From assembly GCF_011516945.1 (NCBI RefSeq), contig NZ_WOTH01000012.1:1-64000 (forward strand): a stretch of 64,000 nt of DNA, written 5' to 3'. The notes under the pieces were generated by a model, which was given only the letters and a program-made list of their open reading frames with translations, searched no databases and had not been told where the DNA came from. The position numbers and the translations under genes were made by a program. Every line of letters starts with the position of its first letter. Position 1 is the stretch's first letter. Shown piece by piece: positions 43,047 through 59,650 of the stretch. Source of the stretch: Acetobacter estunensis (GTDB lineage Bacteria > Pseudomonadota > Alphaproteobacteria > Acetobacterales > Acetobacteraceae).

Positions 43047-43382
43047 TTCTCTCTTCCTTGCAAATTGCTGTTTCACGTCTCGACTGCTGGCGCAGAAAAC
43101 CTTTGCGCGGCCGCCCGTAGTGTTTCGTGCACGGAATGACATACCGATTTGTTTCATGTCATTGCGTGTCACATGCGCGTGTGTTGAATAAGAAAAAGTG
43201 GCTGTTTTCCGTAGGGATCGCCGTGACTGTATACGGGCGAGTCGTTTCACACGGAAAAGTTCCCGTGCAGATGGGGGCGCGTCACTGGTCAGGCTGGGTT
43301 CACGGACCTAGTTTGGGCGCGACGGTTAGGACAGACGGGACACACCATCCGCAGCCATCGGATGGAGGAGAAGGGAGACAGC
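43047..43382 (+). other. Leader and promoter region of the nuo operon
   Basis: These 336 bases between tRNA-Val and nuoA contain no convincing gene; a frame at 43127-43519 overlaps nuoA in the wrong phase and has no family resemblance. The only clear structure is an inverted repeat, AATGACAT (43135-43142) with ATGTCATT (43156-43163), spaced by 13 bases. The stretch is AT-richer than average near 43140-43215, as expected around promoters, but I could not fix -35 and -10 elements. Confidence 0.55.
43135..43163. promoter_or_regulatory. Inverted repeat, possible operator upstream of nuoA
   Basis: AATGACAT and ATGTCATT are perfect 8-base complements separated by 13 bases, 220 bases before nuoA. 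The spacing suits a dimeric regulator acting on the nuo promoter; no regulator gene is adjacent. Confidence 0.4.
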
Positions 43383-43748
43383 ATGACTTCGACGATCGAC
43401 GCTTATCTTCCCGTGCTGATTTTCGGAGCGCTGGCGGTGGTAATCGCCGGTGCGATGCTGGGCGCTTCCCTCGTGTGCGGGCAGCAGAAGCCCTATGCCG
43501 AGAAACTCACGGCGTATGAGTGCGGATTCGAGGCGTTCGATGACGCCCGACGTCGCTTCGATGTGCGGTTCTATCTCGTCTCGATCCTGTTCATCATCTT
43601 CGATCTGGAAGTGGCCTTCCTGTTCCCTTGGGCAATCAGCCTTTCGCGGATCGGGTTGCTCGGCTTTCTGTCCATGATGGGTTTTCTCGGCGTGCTGGGA
43701 ATCGGTTTTCTCTACGAGTGGCGCAAAGGTGCGCTCGATTGGGATTGA
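43383..43748 (+). CDS. nuoA: NADH-quinone oxidoreductase subunit A
   Basis: This 121-residue membrane subunit of complex I has three helices and helps form the quinone entry site. The conserved loop KLTAYECGFEAFDDARRRFDVRFYLVSILFIIFDLEVAFLFPWA region is fully recognisable (about residues 37-80). ATG 43383 follows GAAGGGAG; a frame open further upstream is not supported. It is the first gene of the complex I operon. Confidence 0.96.
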   Translation: MTSTIDAYLPVLIFGALAVVIAGAMLGASLVCGQQKPYAEKLTAYECGFEAFDDARRRFDVRFYLVSILFIIFDLEVAFLFPWAISLSRIGLLGFLSMMGFLGVLGIGFLYEWRKGALDWD

Positions 43749-43800
43749 TGGACTGGGTGCGAGAGTACGGCCGAGTGTGTGATGTGGTGGAGAACGCGCG

Positions 43801-44382
43801 ATGAGCGGTGAAAACCCCGAGACAGCCCAAAATGCGGGGCAGAATATCGTCTGGAACCGCGACATGGTGCCGCCGGGGCCCGAGCAGGACGCCATCGTCC
43901 GCGGAATCACCGGTGAGATCAGCGAGAAGGGCTTTGTCGTCGCCAGTCTCGACAAGCTGGTGAACTGGGGACGCACGGGCAGCCTGTGGCCGATGTCCTT
44001 CGGTCTGGCCTGCTGCGCGGTGGAGATGATCCACGCTTACATGCCGCGCTACGATCTTGACCGCATGGGCATCATCCCGCGTGGATCGCCGCGTCAGTCG
44101 GACGTGATGATCGTGGCGGGGACGCTCACCAACAAGATGGCGCCCGCTCTGCGGCGCGTGTACGACCAGATGGCCGAGCCACGCTGGGTCATTTCCATGG
44201 GCTCCTGCGCCAATGGTGGTGGCTATTACCATTATTCCTATTCGGTCGTGCGGGGCTGTGACCGCGTGGTGCCGGTGGATGTGTATGTGCCCGGCTGCCC
44301 GCCCACGGCGGAAGCGCTGATCTACGGCATTCTGCTGCTTCAGAAAAAGATTCGTCGGACAGGGACCATTCTCCGTGGCTGA
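43801..44382 (+). CDS. nuoB: NADH-quinone oxidoreductase subunit B
   Basis: This 193-residue peripheral subunit holds the N2 [4Fe-4S] cluster that reduces quinone. Ligand cysteines are in [22 protein letters not shown] and PGCPPTAE. An N-terminal tail of about 25 residues precedes the core. ATG 43801 follows GGAGAA. Its end overlaps the nuoC start by 8 bases. Confidence 0.97.
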
Positions 44383-45031
44383 GGCAACCGCACCCGTTGG
44401 GACGCGCGGCTCGTCCTGCCTTTCCGCTCTGGCGTTCACCCTCTCCACGACGCTGCCGGGCATCCGCTCCGCGTCGCTGGAAGGCGGGGAACTCGTTGTT
44501 CGGGCCGAACGTGAACGCCTGATCCCGCTGATGACGCTGTTGCGTGACGATCCGCGCTTTCGTTGCGAACAGATGATGGATCTCTGTGGCGTCGATTTCC
44601 CGGAGCGTCCAGAACGGTTCGACGTGGTGTACAACCTGCTCTCCGTCAGTCACAATCACCGCATCCGCGTGATCGTGACGACCGATGAACTCACGCCGGT
44701 CCCCTCCATTCACAAGCTTTGGCCCTGCGCCACGTGGTGGGAGCGGGAGTGCTACGATCTGTTTGGCGTGCTGTTCTCAGGCCAGCCGGATCTGCGGCGC
44801 ATCCTCTCGGATTACGGGTTCGAGGGGCATCCGCTGCGCAAGGATTTCCCGCTGACGGGGTACACCGAGGTCCGCTACGACCCGGACCGTCGCCAGATCG
44901 TGCGCGAGCCGGTTTCGCTCACGCAGGATTTCCGCGATTTCGATTTCGTCTCGCCATGGGAAGGGGTGCTGACCCTGCCGGGTGACGAGCGGGCGCATGA
45001 ACTGCGCCAGATCATGAAGAAGCTGAAGTGA
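44375..45031 (+). CDS. nuoC: NADH-quinone oxidoreductase subunit C
   Basis: This 218-residue peripheral subunit docks with NuoD. The family signature is plain: [25 protein letters not shown], then [40 protein letters not shown]. Translation starts at GTG 44375 inside the end of nuoB. NuoC and NuoD are separate here, unlike the fused E. coli form. Confidence 0.96.
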
Positions 45032-45044
45032 CAGGAGCCCAAGG

Positions 45045-46337
45045 ATGACACAGGCCCTGAAAACGGATGGACCGCAGCCCGGTCTGCGTGATGTGCTCGA
45101 TGAAGGTCCGCTGCCGGAATCGCTCCTGCCGGAACCCGCGGTCGAGCAGAAAGTCGAGCGGCGCACGGTCGAGATCGACAGCCATTCGCTGAATTTCGGC
45201 CCCCAGCATCCGTCGGCACATGGTGTGCTGCGTCTGGTGCTGGAGATGGAGGGCGAGGTTGTGGCCCGTGCGGTGCCACATATCGGCCTGTTGCATCGCG
45301 GCACGGAAAAGCTGATCGAATACAAGACATATCCCAAGGCGCTGCCCTATTTCGATCGGCTCGATTACGCCTCCCCGATGAGCGAGGAACATGCGTTCGC
45401 GCTGGCAACCGAGAAGCTTCTGGGCATCACGGCGCCGGAGCGGGCGCAGTGGATTCGGGTCATCTTCGCGGAAATCACACGCATCCTGAATCATATCCTC
45501 AATCTGACCGCCATGGGGCTGGATTGCGGCGCGGTGACGCCGGCACTTTGGGGATATGAGGAGCGTGAAAAGCTTCTCGAATTTTATGAAGCCGTCTCGG
45601 GTGCGCGGTTCCATGCCAACTATTTCCGTCCCGGCGGCGTGGCGCGTGATCTTCCGGCGGGGCTGGAAGAGCGGATCGGTCGGTGGGCGGATGAGTTCCC
45701 GGCATGGATCGACGATCTCGAAAGCCTGCTGACGGAAAACCGTATCTGGAAGCAGCGCACGGTGGGGATCGGTGTGTTCACCAGCGAGCAGGCGCTGGCG
45801 TGGGGTTTCAGCGGTCCCTGCCTGCGTGGCTCGGGTGTGCCATGGGATCTGCGGCGTTCGCAGCCTTATGACACCTATGACCGGGTGACGTTCGACATCC
45901 CCGTGGCGCGGCATGGTGACTGCTACGACCGCTATCTCGTCCGTGTGGCCGAGATGCGCGAGAGCGTGAAGATCATCAAGCAGGGGCTGGAGCAGATCAA
46001 GCCCGGTCCGGTGAAGGTGCAGGATCCCAAGTTCTCGCCGCCGCCGCGCGCGGAGATGAAGCGTTCGATGGAAGCGCTGATCCATCACTTCAAGCTGTTT
46101 ACCGAAGGCTATCACGTGCCGCCGGGCGCGACCTATACGGCGGTCGAGACGCCAAAGGGTGAGTTCGGCGTCTATCTGGTGGCGGACGGCAGCAACCGAC
46201 CCTATCGCTGCAAGATCCGCCCCACGGGTTTCGCGCATTTGCAGGCCATCGATGAGATGTCGCGGCGCGGCATGCTGGCCGACGCCGTGGCGATCATCGG
46301 ATCGCTGGATCTCGTCTTTGGTGAGGTGGACCGATGA
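45045..46337 (+). CDS. nuoD: NADH-quinone oxidoreductase subunit D
   Basis: This 430-residue subunit of hydrogenase ancestry forms the quinone cavity with NuoB. Recognisable are [55 protein letters not shown] and the C-terminal DLVFGEVDR. An N-terminal extension of about 45 residues (acidic, Pro-rich) precedes the core. GGAG and AAGG lie before ATG 45045. Its stop overlaps nuoE by ATGA. Confidence 0.97.
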
Positions 46338-46975
46338 GCGACGTGAATCACGATCAGCCGACACACTTCGCGTTCGATGAAGTGAGCGAGGCCGAGATCA
46401 CAAAGGTTCTGGCTAAGTATCCGCCCGAGCGGAAGGCCAGTGGCGCGCTGCCGTTGCTCTACATCGTGCAGGACCAGATGAAGCGCCAGACCGGTAGTGC
46501 CTGGGTGCCAACGGTGGCGATGGATGTGGTGGCGGAGCGTCTCGATGTCGCGCCGATCCGCATTTACGAGGTCGCGACATTTTACACGATGTTCAATCTC
46601 AAGCCGATCGGGAAGTATCACCTTCAGGTCTGCACCACGACATCATGCTGGTTGCGCGGTTCGGACGATGTGCTGGGCGCGTGCAAGAAAGCCGCAGGCA
46701 TCGCTCATGTGGGTGGCACCAGCGCGGACGGCCTGTTCACGCTGAGCGAGGCGGAATGTCTTGGCGCATGCGCCAATGCGCCGATCCTTCAGGTGGATAA
46801 CGATTTCTATGAAGACCTCGACGGCCCGCGCACCGAAGCGCTGATCGCGGCGTTGCGGCGTGACGAGGTGCCGCAGCCCGGCCCCACCAACGGTCGGCAC
46901 GGCTCCGAGCCCGAAGGCGGACGACGGGTGTTGCTTGACGCGAACGCGGGGGCCGCAGGCCCACAGAAGGGCTGA
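46334..46975 (+). CDS. nuoE: NADH-quinone oxidoreductase subunit E
   Basis: This 213-residue thioredoxin-like subunit binds the [2Fe-2S] cluster N1a beside NuoF. Ligands are in [15 protein letters not shown] and in [12 protein letters not shown]-terminal tail of about 35 residues, rich in Gly, Pro and Arg, extends past the core. The start overlaps the nuoD stop. Confidence 0.95.
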
Positions 46976-46987
46976 GGAGAACCGGCG

Positions 46988-48322
46988 ATGCTGAGCGACA
47001 AGGACCGGATTTACACCAATCTCTACGGCCAGAACGATTGGCATCTCGCGGGTGCTCGCGCGCGTGGGGATTGGGATGACACCAAAGCCATTCTCGACAA
47101 GGGTCGCGATTGGATCGTGAGTGAGATGAAGGCGTCGGGCCTTCGCGGACGTGGTGGCGCGGGCTTCCCGACGGGTGTGAAGTGGTCCTTCATGCCGAAG
47201 GGCGATGGGCCGCTGCCGCATTACCTCGTCATCAATGGGGACGAGTCCGAACCGGGCACCTGCAAGGACCGCGAGATCCTGCGCCATGAGCCGCACAAGC
47301 TGATCGAGAGTGCACTGATCGCCTCCTTCGCCATGGGGGCGCACGCGGCTTACATCTATATCCGCGGCGAGTTCTATAACGAGGCACGGCATCTCCAGAT
47401 CGCGGTGGATGAGGCCTACGAAGCCGGGCTGCTGGGCAAGAATGCGGCGGGCACCGGCTGGGATTTCGATTTCTACATCCATCGTGGCGCGGGTGCGTAT
47501 ATCTGCGGTGAGGAAACGGCGCTGCTGGAAAGCCTTGAAGGCAAGAAGGGCCAGCCGCGCATGAAGCCGCCTTTCCCGGCGGGGGCGGGTCTGTATGGGT
47601 GCCCGACGACGGTGAACAATGTGGAGTCCATCGCCTCGGCCTCCACCATTCTGCGTCGTGGGGCCGCGTGGTTCTCCGCTCTTGGTCGTCCGAACAATGC
47701 GGGCACCAAGCTGATGGCCATCTCAGGTCATGTGAATACGCCCTGCGTGTTCGAGGAAGAGCTGGGTGTTTCGATGAAGGAGATCATCGAGAAGCATGGC
47801 GGCGGCGTGCGCGGCGGGTGGGATAACCTGCTGGCTGTCATTCCCGGCGGCTGCTCGGTGCCGGTGTTGCCGAAAGAGACCTGTGAGACCGTGCTGATGG
47901 ACTATGACAGCCTGCGGGCCGTGCAGTCCGGTCTGGGCACCGGCTGCATGATCGTGATGGATAAATCCACCGACATCATCAAGGCGATCGCCCGTTTTTC
48001 ACAGTTCTTCAAGCATGAGAGTTGCGGTCAGTGCACGCCCTGCCGTGAAGGCACGGGCTGGATGATGCGCGTGATGAACCGGATGGTCGAAGGACGGGCG
48101 GAGATCGAGGAGATCGACATGCTCGAACAGGTCACGCGGCAGGTGGAAGGCCACACGATCTGCGCGCTGGGCGATGCGGCAGCGTGGCCGATCCAGGGGC
48201 TGATCCGCCATTTCCGTCCGGTGATGGAAGAGCGCATCCGCACCTATAAACGGCAGCATGGCGGCTCGCAGCAGGTGCAGGTGCCTGTCGGTGCGCCGCT
48301 CGCCACGATTGCGGCGGAGTAA
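46988..48322 (+). CDS. nuoF: NADH-quinone oxidoreductase subunit F
   Basis: This 444-residue subunit binds NADH, FMN and the N3 [4Fe-4S] cluster, the electron entry point. Motifs are [18 protein letters not shown] (NADH), [16 protein letters not shown] (FMN), [23 protein letters not shown], and the cluster ligands in [15 protein letters not shown]. It starts 12 bases after nuoE. Confidence 0.97.
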
Positions 48323-48327
48323 AGCGG

Positions 48328-50358
48328 ATGGTCAAGGTTATCGTTGACGGCATTCCGGTCGAGGTTCCCGCTGGGTCTTCCGCGTTGCAGGCGTGTGAGG
48401 CGGCGGGCAAGGAAATCCCACGCTTCTGCTACCACGAGCGTCTGTCGGTCGCGGGTAACTGCCGCATGTGTCTCGTGCAGGTGGCGCGTGCGCCCAAGCC
48501 GGTGGCATCGTGCGGTTTCCCGGTGGGCGAGGGAATGCAGATCTTCACCGACACCGAGACCGTGCGGAAAGCACGGCGGGCGGTGATGGAGTTCCTGCTC
48601 ATCAACCATCCACTCGATTGCCCGATCTGCGATCAGGGGGGCGAGTGCGACCTTCAGGATCAGGCCTACGGGTATGGCAGCGGCATGTCCCGCTACCATG
48701 AAGACAAACGCGCCGTGACCGACAAGAATCTTGGGCCGCTGGTCAAGACGGTGATGACACGCTGCATCCAGTGCACCCGCTGCGTGCGTTTCTCCACGGA
48801 GGTGGCGGGCACGCCAGAGTTGGGCGGTATTTCGCGCGGCGAAAATCTGGAGATCACCACCTATGTCGAGAAAGCACTGACGTCCGAGCTTTCGGGCAAC
48901 CTGATCGACATCTGCCCTGTGGGCGCATTGACGTCGAAGCCTTCGGCCTTTCAGGCGCGGCCGTGGGAATTGAAAAAGACGGACGCCATCGACGTGATGG
49001 ACGCGGTGGGCACCAACATCGTCATTCAGGCGCGGGGCGGCGAAGTTAAGCGCATCGTGCCGCGCATCAATGACGAGGTGAACGAGGAGTGGCTGTCCGA
49101 CAAGGGACGCTTCTCTGTGGATGGCCTCAAGCGTCGTCGTCTCGATCGGCCTTGGGTGCGCGTGCATGGCAAGCTGCATCCGGCTTCGTGGCAGGATGCA
49201 TTCGTGGCCATAGCCAAACGTCTCGAAGGTGTGCCCGGCTCACGGATCGGCGCGATTGTGGGCGATCTGTGCGAGGCCGAGAGCATCATGGCGCTGCGTG
49301 ATCTGATGCACGCGCTCGGTTCAAGCAACCTCGATTGCCGTCAGGATGGTGCGCAATACGATCTGACCGATCGTGCGAACTACATTTTTGCCGATGGCAT
49401 CACGGGCATTGATGAGGCGGACGCGGTGCTGGTCGTGGGCGCGAATGTCCGTCAGGACGCGCCGGTGCTCAATGCGCGCATCCGCAAGCGGTATCTCTCG
49501 CTTGGGCGCGGCGGTCTGCCGATTGGCGTGATCGGCACGCTGCCCTCCGATCCGACATGGGCCTATGAGCCACTTGGCGATGATCCGACGGCGCTGAACG
49601 CGCTGATGGATGGCACGGAAGGCTTCGCCGCGAAGCTCAAGGCGGCCAAGCGGCCTTTGATTATTGTCGGGCAGGAAGTTCTGGTGCGTGAGGATGCGCT
49701 GGCGATCCTCGCCGGGTGCCGCAAAGTGCTGGCAGCGGGTGAGCGGGCGGAAGGCTGGCACGGTTTGAACATCCTGCACACGGCGGCCTCGCGCGTGGCG
49801 GCTCTGGATCTGGGCTTCGTGCCCGGCAATGGCGGCCGCAGCGTGCGCGGGATGCTCAGCGGCGGTGTGGATGTGCTGTGGCTGCTGGGCGCGGATGAGT
49901 TTCCTGTTCACTCCATCAGCCCGGACACGTTCGTGGTCTATCAGGGCCATCATGGGGACGCAGGGGCCGCGCGCGCGGATGTGATTCTGCCGGGTGCGAC
50001 CTACACCGAGAAAGAGGGCACCTGGGTCAACACAGAAGGGCGCGTCCAGCGTGGCTTTCAGGCGGTGTTCCCGCCGGGCGAGGCCAAGGAGGACTGGAAA
50101 ATCCTGCGTGCTGTCTCGGAAGTTCTGGGGGCGACGCTGCCCTATGACACGATTGGCGCATTGCGCGAACGAATGCAGCTTGGCGTTTCATCGGCGGCCG
50201 CTGCGCCTGAGGTAGCCAGTCAGGTGGCGCTCGACGCACGGCCTCTTGTACCGGCAACACACGGATATTACCTGACAAATCCGATCAGCCGGGCCAGTCC
50301 GACCATGAATGAGTGCGCGGCGGTGTATGCGCCGAGTGCGGCTGTAGCGGCGGAGTAG
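48328..50358 (+). CDS. nuoG: NADH-quinone oxidoreductase subunit G
   Basis: This 676-residue iron-sulfur subunit carries the chain from N3 towards NuoI. Ligands are visible in [35 protein letters not shown] and [11 protein letters not shown] molybdopterin-oxidoreductase-like body follows, which is structural in complex I. The length fits the alphaproteobacterial type. ATG 48328 lies 5 bases after nuoF. Confidence 0.96.
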
Positions 50359-50362
50359 GAAC

Positions 50363-51385
50363 GTGGCGTATTTTTTCCTCCGTACGCTGATCGGTCAGAT
50401 CATTCTGATCGCTCTTGAAGCGCTGGCGGTGCTGGTGCCGCTGCTGATCGCCGTGGCCTATCTCACGCTGATGGAGCGCAAGGTGATGGCCGCGATGCAG
50501 TTGCGTCGCGGGCCGAACGTGAACGGCATTTTCGGTCTGCTTCAGGCTTTTGCCGACGCGATCAAGATGATCACCAAGGAGACCATCATTCCGGCGGGGG
50601 CCAACAGGTTCCTGTTCCTGTTCGCTCCGTTCCTCACCTTCTCGCTGGCCATGCTGGCCTGGGCGGTGATCCCGACCGGCAGCGGGCTGGCGGTGGCCAA
50701 CATCAATGTGGGTATTCTCTACCTGCTCGCTATTTCCTCGCTGGGGGTTTACGGCACCCTGATCGCGGGCTGGGCGTCCAATTCCAAATACGCCTTTCTC
50801 GGTTCGCTGCGAGCGGCGGCGCAGATGGTGTCCTACGAAGTCTCCATCGGCTTGGTGATCGTCTCGGTACTGCTGGCGGTGGGAAGCCTGAACCTCAATG
50901 ACATCGTGCTGGCGCAGCAGCACATCTGGTTCTGCGTGCCGATGTTCCCGATGTTCATCGTGTTCTTCATCTCGGCGCTGGCCGAGACGGGGCGCGCACC
51001 GTTCGACCTTCCCGAAGGCGAGAGCGAACTGGTGGCTGGCTTCTTCGTGGAATATTCCTCGCTGTCGTTCGGCCTCTTCTTCCTTGGTGAATACGCCAAC
51101 ATGATCCTCATGTCCGGCATGGTCAGCATCCTCTTCCTTGGTGGCTGGTTGCCGCCGCTCGGGATCGCGCCCTTTACATGGGTGCCGGGGCCGCTGTGGT
51201 TCATCGCCAAGATTCTGTTCTGTCTTTTCGTGTTCATCTGGACCCGCGCAACCTTTCCCCGCTTTCGCTACGATCAGCTCATGCGGCTGGGCTGGAAGAT
51301 CTTCCTGCCCATGTCCCTGCTGTGGATGATCGCGACGGCCGGGTTCCTTCTCGCGACGGGCATGTTGCCGCAGGGAGCAAGCTGA
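50363..51385 (+). CDS. nuoH: NADH-quinone oxidoreductase subunit H
   Basis: This 340-residue membrane subunit joins the peripheral arm to the membrane arm and lines the quinone tunnel, with eight predicted helices. Signatures are [20 protein letters not shown] and [27 protein letters not shown]. Translation starts at GTG 50363, preceded by AGTAGGA. It overlaps nuoI by one base. Confidence 0.97.
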
Positions 51386-51873
51386 TGGCTGGCATGGACC
51401 GCGCACTGAAGTCTTTTCTTCTGACCGAGATCGTCTCCGGCATGGTTTCGACCTTCAAGACGATGTTCAAGCCGAAGGTCACGCTGAACTATCCCTATGA
51501 AAAGGGACCGCTCTCGCCGCGTTTCCGGGGCGAGCACGCCCTGCGCCGCTACCCCAATGGGGAAGAGCGCTGCATCGCCTGCAAACTGTGCGAGGCGACG
51601 TGCCCGGCGGAGGCCATCACGATCGAGGCCGAGCCGCGCGAGGACGGCTCGCGCCGCACCACGCGCTACGACATCGACATGACCAAGTGCATCTATTGCG
51701 GTCTGTGCGAGGAGGCCTGCCCGGTCGACGCGATCGTGGAAGGGCCGAACTACGAGTTCGCGACCGAGACCCGCGAGGAGTTGATGTACAACAAGGACAA
51801 GCTGCTCGCGAACGGGGACCGCTGGGAAAGCGTGCTGGCACGGAGGCTCGAACTCGATGCGCCGTATCGCTGA
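51385..51873 (+). CDS. nuoI: NADH-quinone oxidoreductase subunit I
   Basis: This 162-residue ferredoxin-like subunit carries clusters N6a and N6b. The two ligand sets [12 protein letters not shown] and [12 protein letters not shown] are intact. The start at 51385 is chosen because it shares a base with the nuoH stop and gives the standard N-terminus; a longer frame begins inside nuoH. Confidence 0.97.
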
Positions 51874-51915
51874 TCGTCCCGTCATGACGACCTGCTCCAA
51901 GGGAAGGGCGGCCTG

Positions 51916-52656
51916 ATGCTCCAGTTGATCTTCTATGTGTTCGCGACGATCCTTGTCGCTTCTGGCGCGATGGTCATCAGCGCGCGCAATCCGGTTCACT
52001 CGGTGCTGTTCCTGATCCTTGCGTTCTTCAACGCGGCGGGACTGTTCCTGTTGGCCGGGGCCGAGTTCCTCGCGATGATCCTTGTGATCGTCTATGTCGG
52101 CGCGGTCGCGGTGCTGTTCCTCTTCGTGGTGATGATGCTCGACATCGACTTCACGAAGATGCGCGAAGGTTTGCAGAAATACGCGCCGTTCGGGGCGGCG
52201 GTGGGCTGCATCCTGTTCGCGGAACTGGTGATGGCCGGGCTGCACTGGATGTTCTCGCCCGTCATGCCGCTGCCCATCACGGGTGGGCTGGGACAGATGG
52301 GCGGTCCGGTGACCAATACCGGCGCGCTCGGCACGCTGATCTACACGCATTATCTGCTGCTCTTCCAGCTTTGCGGGCTGGTGCTCCTGGTCGCGATGAT
52401 CGGCGCGATTACGCTCACGCTGCGCGACCGTCCGACAGGGCGCCGTCAGATCATCTCGCTTCAGCACGAGCGCAAGCGCGCCGACACGCTGGAGATGATG
52501 GATCTGCCGCTCGGTCAGGGCACGGACGCCAATGGCGGTTTCCTGCGCCCGCATGACTCCTACTACGTCACGGCGGTGCCCGGTTCCTACGGCGTGCCAG
52601 AGGCCGTCGAGGAGGAACACGAGGAACTGGTGGTCCGCGAAGGAGAGGAACGATGA
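51916..52656 (+). CDS. nuoJ: NADH-quinone oxidoreductase subunit J
   Basis: This 246-residue membrane subunit has five helices; its third helix contains the pi-bulge linked to coupling. The core is clear from [25 protein letters not shown] and [29 protein letters not shown]. The soluble C-terminal tail (from about residue 175) is longer than in E. coli. ATG 51916 follows AAGGGAAGGG. Its stop overlaps nuoK by ATGA. Confidence 0.95.
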
Positions 52657-52976
52657 ACGCTGCGATCGCCCAGATCGGGCTTGGTCCCTACCTCACGGTC
52701 AGCGCGGCGCTGCTGGTGCTGGGCGTGTTCGGGATTTTCCTCAACCGCAAGAACATCATCATTATCATGATGTCGATGGAGCTGATCCTGCTCTCGGCCA
52801 ATCTCAACCTCGTGGCGTTTTCGGCCGCTCTGGGGGATCTGTCGGGACAGGTGCTCACGCTGTTCGTGCTGACCATCGCCGCTGCTGAAGCGGCGATCGG
52901 GCTGGCCATTCTCACCGTCTATTTCCGCAACCGTGGCTCGATTCAGGTCGAGGACGTTGCGACGATGAAGGGCTGA
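52653..52976 (+). CDS. nuoK: NADH-quinone oxidoreductase subunit K
   Basis: This 107-residue membrane subunit with three helices carries the buried glutamates of the proton pathway in [17 protein letters not shown] and [15 protein letters not shown]-like context (seen as [17 protein letters not shown]). It is coupled to nuoJ by an ATGA overlap and ends 5 bases before nuoL. Confidence 0.96.
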
Positions 52977-52981
52977 GCACC

Positions 52982-54925
52982 ATGCAAGCCGCACTCATCC
53001 TTTTCTCGATTGCCATTCTTGCCCCTCTGGGTGGCTCCCTGATCGCGGGGCTGTTCGGACGACGCATGGGCGACGGTCCGGCGCAGGCCGTGACCATTGC
53101 CTTCATGCTGGTGGCGACGCTGTGCAGTTATGGCGCGCTTCTGGGCGGTCTGATCGGTGGCGGGATGCCCGGCGTGGCACTGTTGGCGCACTGGGTGGAT
53201 GCGGGGTCGTTCCATGTGAACTGGGCGCTGCGCTTCGACACGCTCTCGATCACCATGGCGGCCATGGTGCTGACAGTCTCGCTGCTCGTGCATGTGTACA
53301 GCCTCGGTTACATGGCGCACGATTCCATGCCGCGGTACCGGTTTTTCTCGTACCTCTCGCTGTTTACCTTCGCCATGCTGATGCTGATCTCGTCCAACGA
53401 CCTGATGCAGCTCTTCTTCGGTTGGGAGGGCGTGGGTCTCGCGAGTTACCTGCTCATTGGCTACTGGTATCAGCGCCCGAGCGCCTGTGCAGCGGCCATC
53501 AAGGCCTTCGTGGTCAATCGTGTGGCGGACCTGTTCTTTCTGGTGGGCATCGGCCTGATCTTCGTGGTGTTCGGCACCATCCAGTATGACGACATCTTCG
53601 CTACCGTGCCGGATCAGGTGAACACGACGTATCATCTGTTCGGCGCCAATCATTCGGTGCTGGAACTGATCGCGACCCTTCTGTTCATCGGGGCGATGGG
53701 CAAGTCGGCGCAGTTGTTCCTGCACACATGGTTGCCGGATGCGATGGAAGGCCCGACGCCGGTCTCCGCCCTGATCCATGCGGCCACCATGGTCACGGCA
53801 GGCGTATTCCTGATGGCGCGCATGTCGCCGCTGGTGGAGTTTGCGCCCGATACGCGCATCTTCATCGTGCTGATCGGGGCGACGACCTGTTTCTTCGCCG
53901 CAACCGTGGGGCTGGTGCAGCCCGACATCAAACGCACGATTGCCTATTCCACCTGTTCGCAGCTTGGCTACATGTTCATGGCGATTGGTGTGGGCGCGTA
54001 TCAGGCGGCGGTGTTCCATCTGACCACGCACGCTTTCTTCAAGGCGCTGCTGTTCCTTGGTGCGGGCTGCGTGATCCATGCTCTTCATGACGAGCAGAAC
54101 ATGTTCCGCATGGGCGGTCTGTGGAAGAAAATCCCCGTGACCTACGCTGTCATGTGGATTGGCAGTCTGGCGCTGGCGGGTGTGTTCCCCTTTGCGGGTT
54201 ACTGGTCCAAGGATGCCATTCTCAACGCCGCATGGGCTTCGCATTCGGGCATCGGCACCTATGGCTGGGTGCTGGGCACGATCACGGCCTTCATCACGGC
54301 GCTGTATAGCTGGCGTCTCATCTTCCTCGTCTTCCACGGTACGCCGCGCGATCAGCACGCACACGATCATGCGCATGAAAGCCCGCCGGTGATGATGGGT
54401 CCGGTGGTGATCCTCTCCATTGGCGCCGTTGTGGCGGGTGTCGTGCTGGCGCCGTTTTATATCGGCGGCAAGCAGGCGGCTTTCTGGAGCGGGGCGATCT
54501 TCAACGCGCCGGGCAACACCATCATGGAGCGTCTTGAGGACGTGCCTGCTCTGATCGGGCTGCTGCCGAGCATCGTGGGGCTTGCTGGCATTGCGCTGGC
54601 CTATGTTCTCTACATCGCCAAACCCGAACTGCCCGCGTCCATCGCCACGTCCTTTCGGCCGATCTACCTTTTTCTGCTCAACAAATGGTATTTCGACGAG
54701 TTGTATGACGTGATCTTCGTTAAGCCCTACGCCTTTATCGCGCGTGTGCTGTGGCGGGGTGTGGATGAAGGCGCGGTGGAGAAGCTGCCCGTCGGGCTGG
54801 CGCGTGCCACCCGCGATACGGCGATTGTCGCTACCCGCACGCAGACCGGCTCGATCGCGGTCTATGCGCTGACCATGCTTGTGGGCCTCGTGGTGCTGGT
54901 CACCACCGTGGTGTTCTTCCAATGA
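52982..54925 (+). CDS. nuoL: NADH-quinone oxidoreductase subunit L
   Basis: This 647-residue antiporter-like subunit forms the distal end of the membrane arm and has the long lateral helix at its C-terminus. Signatures are LFFGWEGVGLASYLLIGYWY, LPDAMEGPTPVSALIHAATMVTAGVFL, and the antiporter lysine region QPDIKRTIAYSTCSQLGYM. It appears full length. Its TGA overlaps an ATG by ATGA, but that ATG opens only a 17-codon frame rather than nuoM. Confidence 0.97.
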   Translation: MQAALILFSIAILAPLGGSLIAGLFGRRMGDGPAQAVTIAFMLVATLCSYGALLGGLIGGGMPGVALLAHWVDAGSFHVNWALRFDTLSITMAAMVLTVSLLVHVYSLGYMAHDSMPRYRFFSYLSLFTFAMLMLISSNDLMQLFFGWEGVGLASYLLIGYWYQRPSACAAAIKAFVVNRVADLFFLVGIGLIFVVFGTIQYDDIFATVPDQVNTTYHLFGANHSVLELIATLLFIGAMGKSAQLFLHTWLPDAMEGPTPVSALIHAATMVTAGVFLMARMSPLVEFAPDTRIFIVLIGATTCFFAATVGLVQPDIKRTIAYSTCSQLGYMFMAIGVGAYQAAVFHLTTHAFFKALLFLGAGCVIHALHDEQNMFRMGGLWKKIPVTYAVMWIGSLALAGVFPFAGYWSKDAILNAAWASHSGIGTYGWVLGTITAFITALYSWRLIFLVFHGTPRDQHAHDHAHESPPVMMGPVVILSIGAVVAGVVLAPFYIGGKQAAFWSGAIFNAPGNTIMERLEDVPALIGLLPSIVGLAGIALAYVLYIAKPELPASIATSFRPIYLFLLNKWYFDELYDVIFVKPYAFIARVLWRGVDEGAVEKLPVGLARATRDTAIVATRTQTGSIAVYALTMLVGLVVLVTTVVFFQ

Positions 54926-54975
54926 GCGCCGTCTTTCCGACTGATCTGATGAACGTCATGGAGTACGGGCGATGA
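54922..54975 (+). pseudogene. nuoM: 17-codon remnant at the nuoM position
   Basis: Between nuoL and nuoN, where nuoM (about 1.5 kb, 500 residues) is expected, only MSAVFPTDLMNVMEYGR remains. Its ATG (54922) overlaps the nuoL TGA and its TGA (54973-54975) overlaps the nuoN ATG (54972), each as ATGA. These are exactly the junctions an intact, coupled nuoM would be expected to have on both sides. The simplest reading is an in-frame internal deletion of nuoM that kept its first and last codons. NuoM is one of three proton-pumping antiporter-like subunits and is required in E. coli. Whether another copy exists outside this window cannot be seen. An assembly error is a possible alternative. Confidence 0.7.
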
Positions 54976-56396
54976 ACTGGATGCTTGCCTTGCCGGAACT
55001 GGTGCTGGCGGTCAGTGGTCTTGTCGTGCTTTCGGGCGGCGTTCTGACGAAGAAGGGCCATGCGTTCCTGCCCACGGCGGCGCTCACCATCGCGGCGTTC
55101 GTGGCGACGATCTTTCTCGTCGGCCTGTCCCCGGATGGCGTGGGGTATCATGGCCTGTTTCAGGTCGATGCCTTCGCGCGTTTCATCAAGGTGCTGGCCC
55201 TGATCGGGGCCATCGTGGCGGTGGCGCTTTCGGTGGGGCATCGCGATGAGGGCCATGAGCTTCCGTTCGAGATGCCGGTGCTGGTGCTGTTCTCCACGCT
55301 GGGCGCGATGGTGATGGCGTCGTCCGCCAGCCTGATGACGCTGTTCGTGGGGCTGGAGTTGTCCTCACTCTCCATCTACGTGCTGTGCGCGATTGAGCGG
55401 GATCGCCCGCAGGCGGCGGAATCCGGACTGAAATATTTCATTCTTGGATCGCTGGCTTCAGGGCTGCTGCTTTACGGCATCTCGCTGGTCTATGGCTTTG
55501 CCGGGACGCTGTCGTACGCGCCCATCGCCGCCGAGATCAACAGTGTGGGCGCGCTGCCGCTGGGTCTGGTGATCGGTGTTGTGTTCATGCTGGTGGGACT
55601 GGCGTTCAAGCTGTCCGCCGTGCCGTTTCATATGTGGACGCCGGATGTCTATCAGGGCGCACCCACGCCCGTGACGGCTTACATGGCGGGTGCGCCGAAA
55701 TTCGCGGCGTTCGCGTTGATCCTGCGTGTGATGAGCGGTCCCTTCGGGGCGATGTCTCCGCGCTGGCAGATCCTCGTGGAAGTGATCGCGGCGATGTCGA
55801 TGCTCTTCGGCTCGTTCGCGGCCATTCCGCAGCACAATATCAAGCGACTGATGGCCTATTCCTCCATCGGGCACATGGGCTACGCCATGATGGGTCTGGC
55901 GGCCGCCTCTCCCGCCGGGACGACGGGCACGCTGGTCTATCTTTCGACCTATCTGGTGATGAACGCGGGCACGTTCGGTGTGATCGAGGCCATGCGGCGT
56001 CGCGGGCAGGAAGTGGACGAGATCTCGGATTTGGCGGGACTTGGTCGCACCAACCCGGGCATGGCGCTGATCCTTGCCATCTGCATGTTCAGCATGGTGG
56101 GCGTGCCGCCTCTGGCCGGGTTCTTCGGCAAGTTCATGGTGTTCGCTGCAGCCTGGCAGGCGGGGCTGTATCCGCTGATCTTCCTCGGTGCGGTCTCTGC
56201 CGTGGTGGGCGCCTATTACTATCTGCGCGTGGTGAAGGTGGCGTGGTTCGATGCGCCAGCGGCACCGTTCGACCGTCCGGCGGCCTCTGTCTCCTTCGTG
56301 TCCATCGCCATGGGACTGGCGACGGTGCTGTTCCTGCTGGGGCTGGGGCCGATCAGCGACGCTGCACGGGCAGCGGCCATGGCGCTCGTTGGCTGA
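54972..56396 (+). CDS. nuoN: NADH-quinone oxidoreductase subunit N
   Basis: This 474-residue antiporter-like subunit sits next to NuoK in the membrane arm. It is NuoN and not NuoM, as judged by MTLFVGLELSSLSIYVLCA, RPQAAESGLKYFILGSLASGLLLYG, FHMWTPDVYQGAPTPVTAYMA and QHNIKRLMAYSSIGHMGYAMMG. It has the expected 13-14 helices and ends normally. The start is coupled to the 17-codon remnant. The birA gene begins 7 bases after its stop. Confidence 0.96.
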   Translation: MNWMLALPELVLAVSGLVVLSGGVLTKKGHAFLPTAALTIAAFVATIFLVGLSPDGVGYHGLFQVDAFARFIKVLALIGAIVAVALSVGHRDEGHELPFEMPVLVLFSTLGAMVMASSASLMTLFVGLELSSLSIYVLCAIERDRPQAAESGLKYFILGSLASGLLLYGISLVYGFAGTLSYAPIAAEINSVGALPLGLVIGVVFMLVGLAFKLSAVPFHMWTPDVYQGAPTPVTAYMAGAPKFAAFALILRVMSGPFGAMSPRWQILVEVIAAMSMLFGSFAAIPQHNIKRLMAYSSIGHMGYAMMGLAAASPAGTTGTLVYLSTYLVMNAGTFGVIEAMRRRGQEVDEISDLAGLGRTNPGMALILAICMFSMVGVPPLAGFFGKFMVFAAAWQAGLYPLIFLGAVSAVVGAYYYLRVVKVAWFDAPAAPFDRPAASVSFVSIAMGLATVLFLLGLGPISDAARAAAMALVG

Positions 56397-56403
56397 GGGG
56401 CGC

Positions 56404-57195
56404 GTGACGGACGGGGCTTTCGGCCCGGTTCCATTGGGTTGGCGGTTCGAGGTGTATGACGAACTGCCCTCCACCTCCGATTTATGTGTCGAGCGGGCAG
56501 ATGGAGGCGAAGGCGGCTGCCTCGCGGTCCTTGCCCGTCGTCAGACGAAAGCGCGAGGCAGCCGGGGGCGTTCGTGGTCCGATCCGGGCGAAAGCTTGGC
56601 GCTTTCCGTTCTGTTGCGGCCGGAAGAGGCGGAGCGAGCGCGTCCCGATATATGGCCGTTTCTTGCGGCTCTGGCGTTTCACGATGCTCTGGGAGGCGAG
56701 CGCTCCAGTTCCCGGCTGCGCATCAAATGGCCCAATGACATTCTGTACGATGGCCGCAAGCTGGGCGGCATCCTGATCGAGACCGGCGGCGGAGCGTCCC
56801 CGTGGGTGGTGATCGGGTTTGGTGGAAACCTGACATCTTCGCCCGCTGTGCCGGGCCGACGGCTGGCGTGTCTGGGGGAGTTTCGGGTGGACTGCGCGCC
56901 CGAACCTCTGGCGCTACGGCTGCTGGAGGCGCTGGACGTGTGGCGGACGGTTCTGGCGCAGAAAGGCGTGGCGGCTCTCCATGCCGCGTGGCTTGCGCGC
57001 GGGCTGCCCCTTGGCTCGCCTCTTGTGGTTCGGGGCATGGGAACCTATGCTGAAGGCCTTTTCATGGGCATTGGAGAGGGCGGGGAACTGCTCCTTGATT
57101 GCAACGGCAAGGTGGAGCGTGTGATTACCGGTGATGTCCTCTTTGGCAATCACGTGACAAACGAAGTGGGTTCCGGTCGTGCTGCTGGTCATTGA
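56404..57195 (+). CDS. birA: Biotin--[acetyl-CoA-carboxylase] ligase
   Basis: This 263-residue ligase attaches biotin to carboxylase carrier protein. It has no N-terminal helix-turn-helix, so it is not a repressor. Motifs are [12 protein letters not shown], the biotin loop [16 protein letters not shown], and the core [19 protein letters not shown]. The translation start is uncertain: GTG 56404 lies just after GAGGGG, with a TTG overlapping the nuoN stop as an alternative. It probably belongs to the nuo transcript and overlaps coaX by 17 bases. Confidence 0.88.
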
Positions 57196-57991
57196 CGCTG
57201 GCAACACCAACGTCGTCTTTGCCGTGGATGACGGCGAAAAATGGCGCGGCACATGGCGCATCTCGATGCAGACCGCGCGGACCACGGACGAATACGCTGT
57301 CTGGCTGCTGACCCTGCTGCACAATGAAGGTCTCTCGCCTCGTGACATCACCGGTGCCGCCATTGGAACGGTGGTGCCGGCCGCGCTTTATCACCTGCGG
57401 CAGCTTTGCCGGCAGTATTTCGAGGTCGAGCCGCTTATTGCCTCGCCGCGGCTGGACTGGGGGTTTTCGATTGCGCTGGACAACCCGCAGGAAGTGGGCG
57501 TGGACCGGCTGCTCAACGGATTGGCGGCGCACAGGCTGTATGGCGGTCCGCTTGTGGTGATCGACTTTGGCACGGCTACGACGTTCGATGTCGTGGGAGG
57601 AGATGGAACCTATTGCGGCGGCGTGATCGCGCCGGGCATCAATCTTTCGGTGGAGGCGCTGCATACGGCGGCGGCGCGTCTGCCACGCATCGGAATTGGA
57701 CGGCCCGAAGGCGGGCTGGTGATCGGGCGGAACACGAACATGGCCATGCGGTCGGGCGTGTTCTGGGGGTATATCGGACTGGTCGAGGGGATTGTTGAGA
57801 GGATCCGCAAGGAATTCGGGGCATCCATGAAGGTGCTTGCGACCGGCGGTCTGGCTCCGCTCTTTTCGGAAGGCACACGTATCTTCGATCACATCGATCC
57901 TGAACTGACCATCAATGGATTGCGGTTTCTGGCCGAACGTAACCCGGAACCGCCACTGCACAACGCATCTGACATCACACAAGAAGGATGA
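57179..57991 (+). CDS. coaX: Type III pantothenate kinase
   Basis: This 270-residue kinase phosphorylates pantothenate in the first step of coenzyme A synthesis. The ATP motif [11 protein letters not shown] is at residues 6-16; pantothenate and dimer motifs follow as [12 protein letters not shown] and [13 protein letters not shown], then [11 protein letters not shown]. Translation starts at GTG 57179 inside the end of birA. The birA-coaX-rnj order is common in alphaproteobacteria. Confidence 0.94.
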
Positions 57992-58000
57992 CCTGACGAT

Positions 58001-59650
58001 ATGACAGAACACGACGACGGTCTGGCCTTCCTGCCTCTGGGCGGGACGGGCGAGATCGGCATGAACCTCAACCTCTACCGGTTGGGCGAGACATGGCTGG
58101 CTGTGGATTGCGGCATCGGCTTTTCGGGCAACGATACGCCGGAAGCCGAGATTCTGGTGCCCGATCCCACCTACATCATGGAGCGTCGCGACAAGTTGGC
58201 CGGTCTGGTCATCACGCACGCGCATGAAGATCACATCGGCGCTGTGGCGCATCTGTGGACGCGGCTGGGCTGCGCTATCTACGCCACGCCGTTTGCTGCG
58301 ACTGTCCTGCGCCGCAAGCTGGGCGAGGCGCGGCTTGATCAGCAAGTGAAGATCCACGTCATCAAGTGTGGCGGACGCTTCAATGTCGGTCCGTTCGACA
58401 TTGAGTTCATCCCTGTGACGCATTCCGTGCCGGAAGCGCAGGCGATGGCCATCCGCACGCCGCACGGGCTTGTGGTCCACACAGGCGACTGGAAGCTCGA
58501 TCCGTCCCCCATGGTCGGGCCGCCGACGGATGTGGAGCGTCTGCGTCAGATCGGTGACGAGGGCGTGCTGGCGCTGGTGTGCGACAGCACCAACGTCATG
58601 ACGCCGGGCGCATCGCGTTCCGAGGGCGAAGTGCGCATTGGGCTGACGGAGCTGATCTCCTCGCTCAAGGGGCGCATCGCGGTGACGTGCTTCGCGTCCA
58701 ACGTGGCGCGTGTCGAGACCATCGCCATGGCCGCGCAGGCGGCGGGGCGCACGGTCGTGCTGGTGGGGCGTTCGCTGCGTAATCTCGATGTGGCGGCGCG
58801 TGAGTGCGGCTATCTCTCGGGCGTGCTGCCGTTCCTGACGGAACACGAAGCCAACGATCTTCCCGATGAACAGGTGGTGATGATCATCACCGGCAGTCAG
58901 GGCGAGCCGCGCTCGGCACTTTCGCGCATCGCCTCCGACACGCATCCGTCCATCGCGCTGGGCGAGGGCGATACGGTCATCTATTCCAGCCGTATGATCC
59001 CCGGAAACGAACGGGCCATCATGCAGGTGCAGGACAATCTGACCCGTCGCGGCGTGCGCGTCATCACCGACAAGGACGGGGTGATGATCCATTGCTCCGG
59101 TCATGCCACGGCGGACGATGTGCGGACGATGTACGACCTCATCCGCCCGCAATACGCCGTGCCGACGCATGGCGAGTGGCGTCACCTGACGGCGCATGCC
59201 GCGCTCGCTCAGGAAAAGGGCATTGCCGCCGTTCTTCTGGAAGACGGGGACATCCTCAATCTGGCGCCGGGCAAGGTGCAGGTGGTGGACACGGCTCCCA
59301 CGGGTCGCCTGGCAGTGGACGGCAATCGCCTGCTGGCCATGACGGGCGATGTGCTGACCGCGCGCCGCAAGATGCTGTTCAACGGCATCATCATCGCGAG
59401 CTTCGCGGTGGACGATGAGGGCTATGTGATCGGTGAGCCCAAGATCAGCGCGCCGGGCCTGCTGGAGCCGGATGAGCCTGAGAGCATCCGTGTGCGTGAG
59501 GAGTTCGCGCAGGCGATCGACGAGATCCCCGACGAGTTGCGTCTGGACGATCAGGCGTTTCGCGAGGCCGCCAAGACGGCGTTGCGTCGCGCGCTGGGCC
59601 GCAAGCTCCAGAAGCGTCCGCTGGTGGACGTTCACGTCCTGCGCGTCTGA
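58001..59650 (+). CDS. rnj: Ribonuclease J
   Basis: This 549-residue metallo-beta-lactamase ribonuclease acts as a 5' exonuclease and endonuclease in mRNA decay and rRNA maturation. The zinc motif HAHEDH is at residues 73-78, with GDWKLD and the beta-CASP motifs SGHATADD and PTHGEWRHLTAH following. The C-terminal domain is present. It starts 9 bases after coaX. The hairpin behind it may end the transcript. Confidence 0.95.
   Translation: MTEHDDGLAFLPLGGTGEIGMNLNLYRLGETWLAVDCGIGFSGNDTPEAEILVPDPTYIMERRDKLAGLVITHAHEDHIGAVAHLWTRLGCAIYATPFAATVLRRKLGEARLDQQVKIHVIKCGGRFNVGPFDIEFIPVTHSVPEAQAMAIRTPHGLVVHTGDWKLDPSPMVGPPTDVERLRQIGDEGVLALVCDSTNVMTPGASRSEGEVRIGLTELISSLKGRIAVTCFASNVARVETIAMAAQAAGRTVVLVGRSLRNLDVAARECGYLSGVLPFLTEHEANDLPDEQVVMIITGSQGEPRSALSRIASDTHPSIALGEGDTVIYSSRMIPGNERAIMQVQDNLTRRGVRVITDKDGVMIHCSGHATADDVRTMYDLIRPQYAVPTHGEWRHLTAHAALAQEKGIAAVLLEDGDILNLAPGKVQVVDTAPTGRLAVDGNRLLAMTGDVLTARRKMLFNGIIIASFAVDDEGYVIGEPKISAPGLLEPDEPESIRVREEFAQAIDEIPDELRLDDQAFREAAKTALRRALGRKLQKRPLVDVHVLRV

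Follow-up and report, generated by a model that had tools for sequence, protein, structure and literature searches.

The window, i.e. the whole stretch of 64,000 nucleotides from Acetobacter estunensis analysed here (contig NZ_WOTH01000012.1), contains eleven complex I genes in order, nuoA to nuoK (43362..52976, +), followed by nuoL, a short coupled frame and nuoN. The features of this region are:

43362-43748, + strand: nuoA (subunit A models, E 1e-30, under their cut-offs)
43801-44382, + strand: nuoB (NCBIfam model, at least one cut-off passed)
44375-45031, + strand: nuoC (NCBIfam model, at least one cut-off passed)
45045-46337, + strand: nuoD (NCBIfam model, at least one cut-off passed)
46334-46975, + strand: nuoE (NCBIfam model, at least one cut-off passed)
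46988-48322, + strand: nuoF (NCBIfam model, at least one cut-off passed)
48328-50358, + strand: nuoG (NCBIfam model, at least one cut-off passed)
50363-51385, + strand: nuoH (NCBIfam model, at least one cut-off passed)
about 51388-51873, + strand: nuoI (NCBIfam model, at least one cut-off passed)
51916-52656, + strand: nuoJ (NCBIfam model, at least one cut-off passed)
52653-52976, + strand: nuoK (NCBIfam model, at least one cut-off passed)
52982-54925, + strand: nuoL, 647 codons, full length (TIGR01974, 791.6 bits)
54922-54975, + strand: 17-codon coupled mini-ORF, sitting where other alphaproteobacteria have nuoM
54972-56396, + strand: nuoN, 474 codons, full length (NF004440, 577 bits, above cut-off)
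56251-57195, + strand: frame of birA, true start not settled
57179-57991, + strand: coaX
58001-59650, + strand: RNase J gene

The alphaproteobacterial nuo14 operon (nuoA-nuoN) has the same order of nuoA to nuoL and nuoN, with birA and RNase J downstream, whereas the window has no nuoM between nuoL and nuoN, and the canonical arrangement is not found in its operon. The frame at this position translates as MSAVFPTDLMNVMEYGR up to its stop, and shares one ATGA with the nuoL stop and another with the nuoN start. The original prediction, that nuoM alone is absent from the operon and that a 17-codon frame overlaps both neighbours by ATGA, was borne out when the junction and both overlaps were read directly in the sequence. 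The other nuo genes are present as it had stated, since nuoB to nuoL and nuoN are over at least one NCBIfam cut-off, and nuoA is matched under the cut-offs. All 8 relatives compared have birA and RNase J after nuoN, and coaX was matched in 5 of these 8; the nuo operon of the window is therefore probably at its native place.

The assembly of the same genome (G000; 3.45 Mb, 120 contigs, completeness 100) was searched with the NuoM model, and two matches over the cut-off were obtained. The stronger one (C10, match region 73651-75081; TIGR01972, 554 bits vs a cut-off of 263.8) belongs to an intact nuoM at G000:C10:73636-75153, which has 505 codons and a GTG start (protein P0003), and no other nuo genes were seen beside it when the locus was read. 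The weaker one (C1:1413-2864, 515 bits) is the NuoM of a second complex I operon. Rescue by a homologue elsewhere had been one of three options in the original prediction, and it is this option that the C10 gene supports. The best solved relative of the C10 protein is chain M of 8qby (complex I subunit M; E 3.5e-126). Four charged pump residues, E144, K223, K254 and E396 (TM5 Glu, TM7 Lys, TM8 Lys and TM12 Glu), are conserved in every NuoM row, detached (40 of 40) or operonic (31 of 31); we take them to correspond to E. coli E144, K234, K265 and E407 in numbering and pump roles. Among the 118 columns invariant in operonic NuoM, 87 are retained in at least 95% of detached rows and 31 are not.

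Within Acetobacter (GTDB sense), NuoM is over the cut-off in all 49 genomes, the window's own included. The nuoL-nuoN junction was read in 47 of them (the window's own and 46 others), the unread ones being G017, where nuoN was not found, and G030, where nuoN is in three pieces. None of the 47 junctions has NuoM between nuoL and nuoN, so the arrangement does not stem from faulty assembly of a single genome. In G017, NuoM is present and a good nuoD or nuoN match is absent; because RNase J, the operon neighbour, is absent too, a missing region is suggested, and G017 was rejected as a true orphan nuoM. As for single genomes, the three nuoN pieces of G030 (G030:C214:26025-27447) reflect a broken gene or assembly errors, and in G027 (L226) nuoL apparently has a premature stop 444 bp ahead of nuoN, and NuoL-like sequence continues past it (frameshift or sequencing error).

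At the family level, 299 genomes were searched with NuoM and NuoN, and 112 genomes are among the matches listed for both. In these, nuoM is only detached in 40, beside nuoN in 67 (24-257 bp before nuoN, among the matches listed) and both in 5, namely three genomes of a genus here called g100 (2.7 Mb, one contig) and two fragmented assemblies (5 and 7 percent contamination). The detached nuoM shares its distribution with nuoN: each of the 40 family genomes whose NuoM reaches 59% identity or more with P0003 has a NuoN match among the matches listed. Another 17 genomes, counted by eye, have weak matches only (NuoM E 1e-73 to 1e-91, NuoN 1e-47 to 1e-64), a pattern that would be expected if only an E. 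coli-like complex I remains there. Mixed genomes among the matches listed are G064 (NuoM without NuoN match), G141, G178, G191 and G334 (NuoN without NuoM match), and G077, G150, G157 and G263 (one of the two weak); each of the nine assemblies is fragmented, with 290 to 1110 contigs, and lies outside the 40 with NuoM at least 59% identical. Around nuoN in 80 named loci, a NuoM match of 100 bits or more precedes nuoN in 74, and the remaining 6 are all from acetic acid bacteria (Acetobacter tropicalis, an Acetobacter bin, Gluconacetobacter, Nguyenibacter, Commensalibacter and Komagataeibacter). Whole-genome search found NuoM in 5 of these 6. The exception is Nguyenibacter (G052), with a nuoM-less junction and no NuoM match in contigs of at least 3 kb; fragmentation may be the reason, and the case counts against the explanation preferred below.

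In a 71-row tree, the 40 detached NuoM rows, which are distinct proteins and include two extra copies from g100, form one clade with support 100/100. When E. coli-like NuoM is used as outgroup, the Acidocella-type operonic NuoM comes out as the sister of this clade (99/90). Nine other Nuo subunits taken together give the same Acidocella sister (SH-aLRT 96) in a quick 23-taxon tree that includes a single Acidocella and six acetic acid bacteria, and the NuoL and NuoN trees do not contradict this placement. The acetous and acidophilic clades are also sisters in a published phylogeny, in the main text of which the word nuoM is absent (PMC10715153). Because NuoM and the nine other subunits share their sister, NuoM has probably shared the history of its complex throughout, the change being one of gene address only.

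The address itself is not uniform. Synteny was read at 17 loci of detached nuoM, 12 of them displayable and 5 left uncounted where a longer overlapping frame had been chosen over nuoM. A mutL-like frame stands directly before nuoM in 7 of the 12, and among 11 acetic-acid genomes 8 have parE no more than 12 kb from nuoM, the others being G000, G040 and G050; these gene names, and mlaA and mlaC below, come from reading the sequences without a family search. In the window's genome nuoM is located behind mlaA-like and mlaC-like genes, likewise in G040, while the G007 locus has neighbour frames in common with both G000 and G040, and the detached nuoM of g100 has a third location. These several locations indicate, as far as gene order tells, that the address of detached nuoM has changed more than once.

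At one end of contig C1 (G000:C1:1-14000, - strand) is the second complex I operon, which has a fused nuoCD as well as a nuoL, a nuoM and a nuoN of its own; the NuoL-, NuoM- and NuoN-like frames and the 49-kDa subunit rest on model matches, and the other names on reading of sizes and sequences. Its NuoM is 39% identical to that of C10. Six NuoM-model matches, as expected for two complex I sets, were found in 12 of 49 Acetobacter genomes, and only three in 35 of 49, which give no sign of a second set and each have a NuoM over the cut-off. Other nuo-like loci were also seen. On contig C8 of the window's genome (L341:6980-9367), a NuoD-like gene (611 aa) and a NuoB-like gene (168 aa) lie downstream of parC, and between parC and these genes a 598-aa frame includes a NuoM-like stretch (C8:15470-15721); the locus looks like an energy-converting-hydrogenase-related complex. 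In Asaia, the common nuo operon is described as lost and another one as present (PMC4596401). Two bins labelled Asaia bogorensis (L055, L056) have an operonic nuoM, and L055 is placed among other Acetobacteraceae; both bins are probably mislabelled.

The trait of a translational-coupling mini-cistron, i.e. a kept frame whose stop falls on the next start codon, is found at the nuoN start in 45 of 47 Acetobacter junctions (13 to 47 codons long when counted from ATG, and up to 51 with a GTG start), all except G037 and G046, and the exact 46-bp spacer with the 17-codon form occurs in 11 of 47. Of 27 junctions, 25 have a coupled ATG frame that is 13 codons or longer, vs 5.1 expected from shuffled spacers, the 27 being hand-picked from the 47 for spread and including relatives, so that they are not independent events. 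Shuffling just the 46-bp spacer of the window gives a probability of 0.60, and a single junction therefore proves nothing. In the seven clusters with a ratio, pN/pS of the peptide is 0.19 (the cluster of the window's near relatives), 0.60, 0.67, 0.70, 0.95, 1.08 and 3.37, and judged by these values its amino acids are hardly conserved. Shine-Dalgarno-like letters stand ahead of the mini-ORF start in 12 of 45 cases. A long variant occurs in G019, G032 and G035 (L218, L230, L233), where the 148-bp nuoL-nuoN spacer holds an uninterrupted 51-codon frame that begins at a GTGA overlap and runs to the ATGA of nuoN. In other acetic-acid genera, 26 reads (with some species represented twice) show nuoL-nuoN gaps of -1 to 35 bp and six further reads show gaps of 12 to 27 bp, and a frame of 13 codons is missing from 25 of the 26. 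The exception is G069 (L185), of the genus nearest Acetobacter in our trees, with a 13-codon TTG frame that overlaps at both ends. The mini-ORF is most likely a coupling mini-cistron of Acetobacter, perhaps also of its nearest neighbour genus, which would act as a relay only.

The original prediction had taken this frame for the scar of an in-frame deletion of nuoM, and its position, the double ATGA overlap and a weak resemblance between its N-terminal residues and the starts of operonic NuoM (p 0.01 in the first test and p 0.04 in the control test, with only the start tested; down to p 0.002 for a single peptide) point that way. However, among nine control profiles, the starts of NuoL (p 0.04) and NuoK (p 0.025) score at the same level as NuoM and only the other seven lower, and the relic test was dropped as support for a scar for this reason. 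The 25 other-genus junctions without a 13-codon frame and the six with short gaps also speak against a remnant, and a relic would need many separate losses; no alignable nuoM fragment was seen at the junctions of basal acetic acid bacteria. We thus consider a nuoM remnant unlikely.

From the above, we hold it very likely that a moved nuoM supplies a complete complex I in trans, with the mini-ORF as a coupling relay. nuoM would have moved out of the nuo operon in an ancestor of acetic acid bacteria to become a separate gene (here the one on C10), and its product, made in trans, would join NuoA-L and NuoN to give an ordinary 14-subunit complex I. In Acetobacter, the poorly conserved short frame between nuoL and nuoN, which ends on the nuoN start, would relay translational coupling. 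That NuoM made in this way assembles and pumps is probably the case, and is the best reading. Published protein data of A. pasteurianus under acetic acid are available for comparison: NuoM was detected as fig_HN.1610, apart from fig_HN.3342-3354, and its four ratios (0.62, 0.33, 2.16 and 1.78, from the part of the table below its header) go in the same direction as those of NuoB to NuoI (PMC10742644). In the same part of that table, NuoN has a first ratio of 0.93 and does not follow NuoM and NuoB-I, which counts against this reading (PMC10742644). The poorly conserved mini-ORF peptide and the two Acetobacter junctions without the frame weigh against the explanation as well.

If the operon's complex I were truly without NuoM, as in the altered or inactive enzyme of the original prediction, it would pump fewer protons or be dead and the detached NuoM would serve otherwise. 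Besides the position of nuoM outside the operon, only G017, which apparently has NuoM without the operon, points to this, and G017 is also missing RNase J. Full-length nuoL and nuoN in the window, an intact NuoM in the same genome, the four pump residues in all 40 rows, NuoN in each of the 40 family genomes with a close NuoM, and the co-varying protein levels in the available data (PMC10742644) all stand against it, and we regard it as very improbable. The second operon does hold its own nuoM, and this E. coli-like NuoM might be lent to the window's complex while the C10 gene is a spare; but the two proteins are only distantly alike (39%) and the 35 genomes with no second set nevertheless have their NuoM, so lending is hardly credible. 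A more speculative version of the moved nuoM, to which we give little weight, is that detachment sets the NuoM supply separately, and some of the cell's complex I would then lack NuoM or be finished later, with the mini-cistron keeping nuoL and nuoN coupled; if true, complex I coupling would be tuned by gene position.

How the move took place is a further question, and g100 bears on it. G159, G215 and G257 carry both an operonic and a detached NuoM, and the extra copies of G159 and G215 fall inside the detached clade (100/100), as would be the case if duplication came first, the two copies coexisting as they still do in g100 before the operonic one was lost. Against this, grouping of the other Nuo subunits of g100 with acetic acid bacteria is disfavoured (p-AU 0.019) and its ParE leans likewise (p-AU 0.078), which also weakens g100 as a frozen intermediate; for the same grouping NuoN can go either way (p-AU 0.199) and NuoM is weakly against (p-AU 0.042). 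Because its other Nuo subunits fall outside acetic acid bacteria, g100 may have gained its extra nuoM sideways, and duplication first is a possible route that we lean slightly against.

Displaced complex I genes have precedents. Rickettsia and relatives have split nuo operons, with complex I genes in several clusters, whereas here a single gene is displaced. In A. pasteurianus, nuoM likewise lies outside the operon: it is listed there as APT_00690 in strain SKU1108 (PMC5158111), and strain 386B has, in addition to the operon, an extra complex I tag without gene name, APA386B_2247 (PMC3751514), which is probably the same gene. A nuoM outside the operon is thus already known in this species. The available text of these papers lists it without comment, whereas the present data describe a clade-wide pattern, a single clade, a changed address and a mini-ORF. 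No description of a clade-wide nuoM move or of the mini-ORF was found in the main text of the open-access literature searched.

In summary, what was suspected to be a broken enzyme becomes a clade-shared case of a subunit gene leaving a conserved operon. Where annotation or metabolic modelling relies on operon-wise counts of nuo genes, complex I in these bacteria should not be called incomplete. Acetic acid bacteria offer a natural test of how the amount of a membrane-arm subunit is matched when it is made from a separate message.
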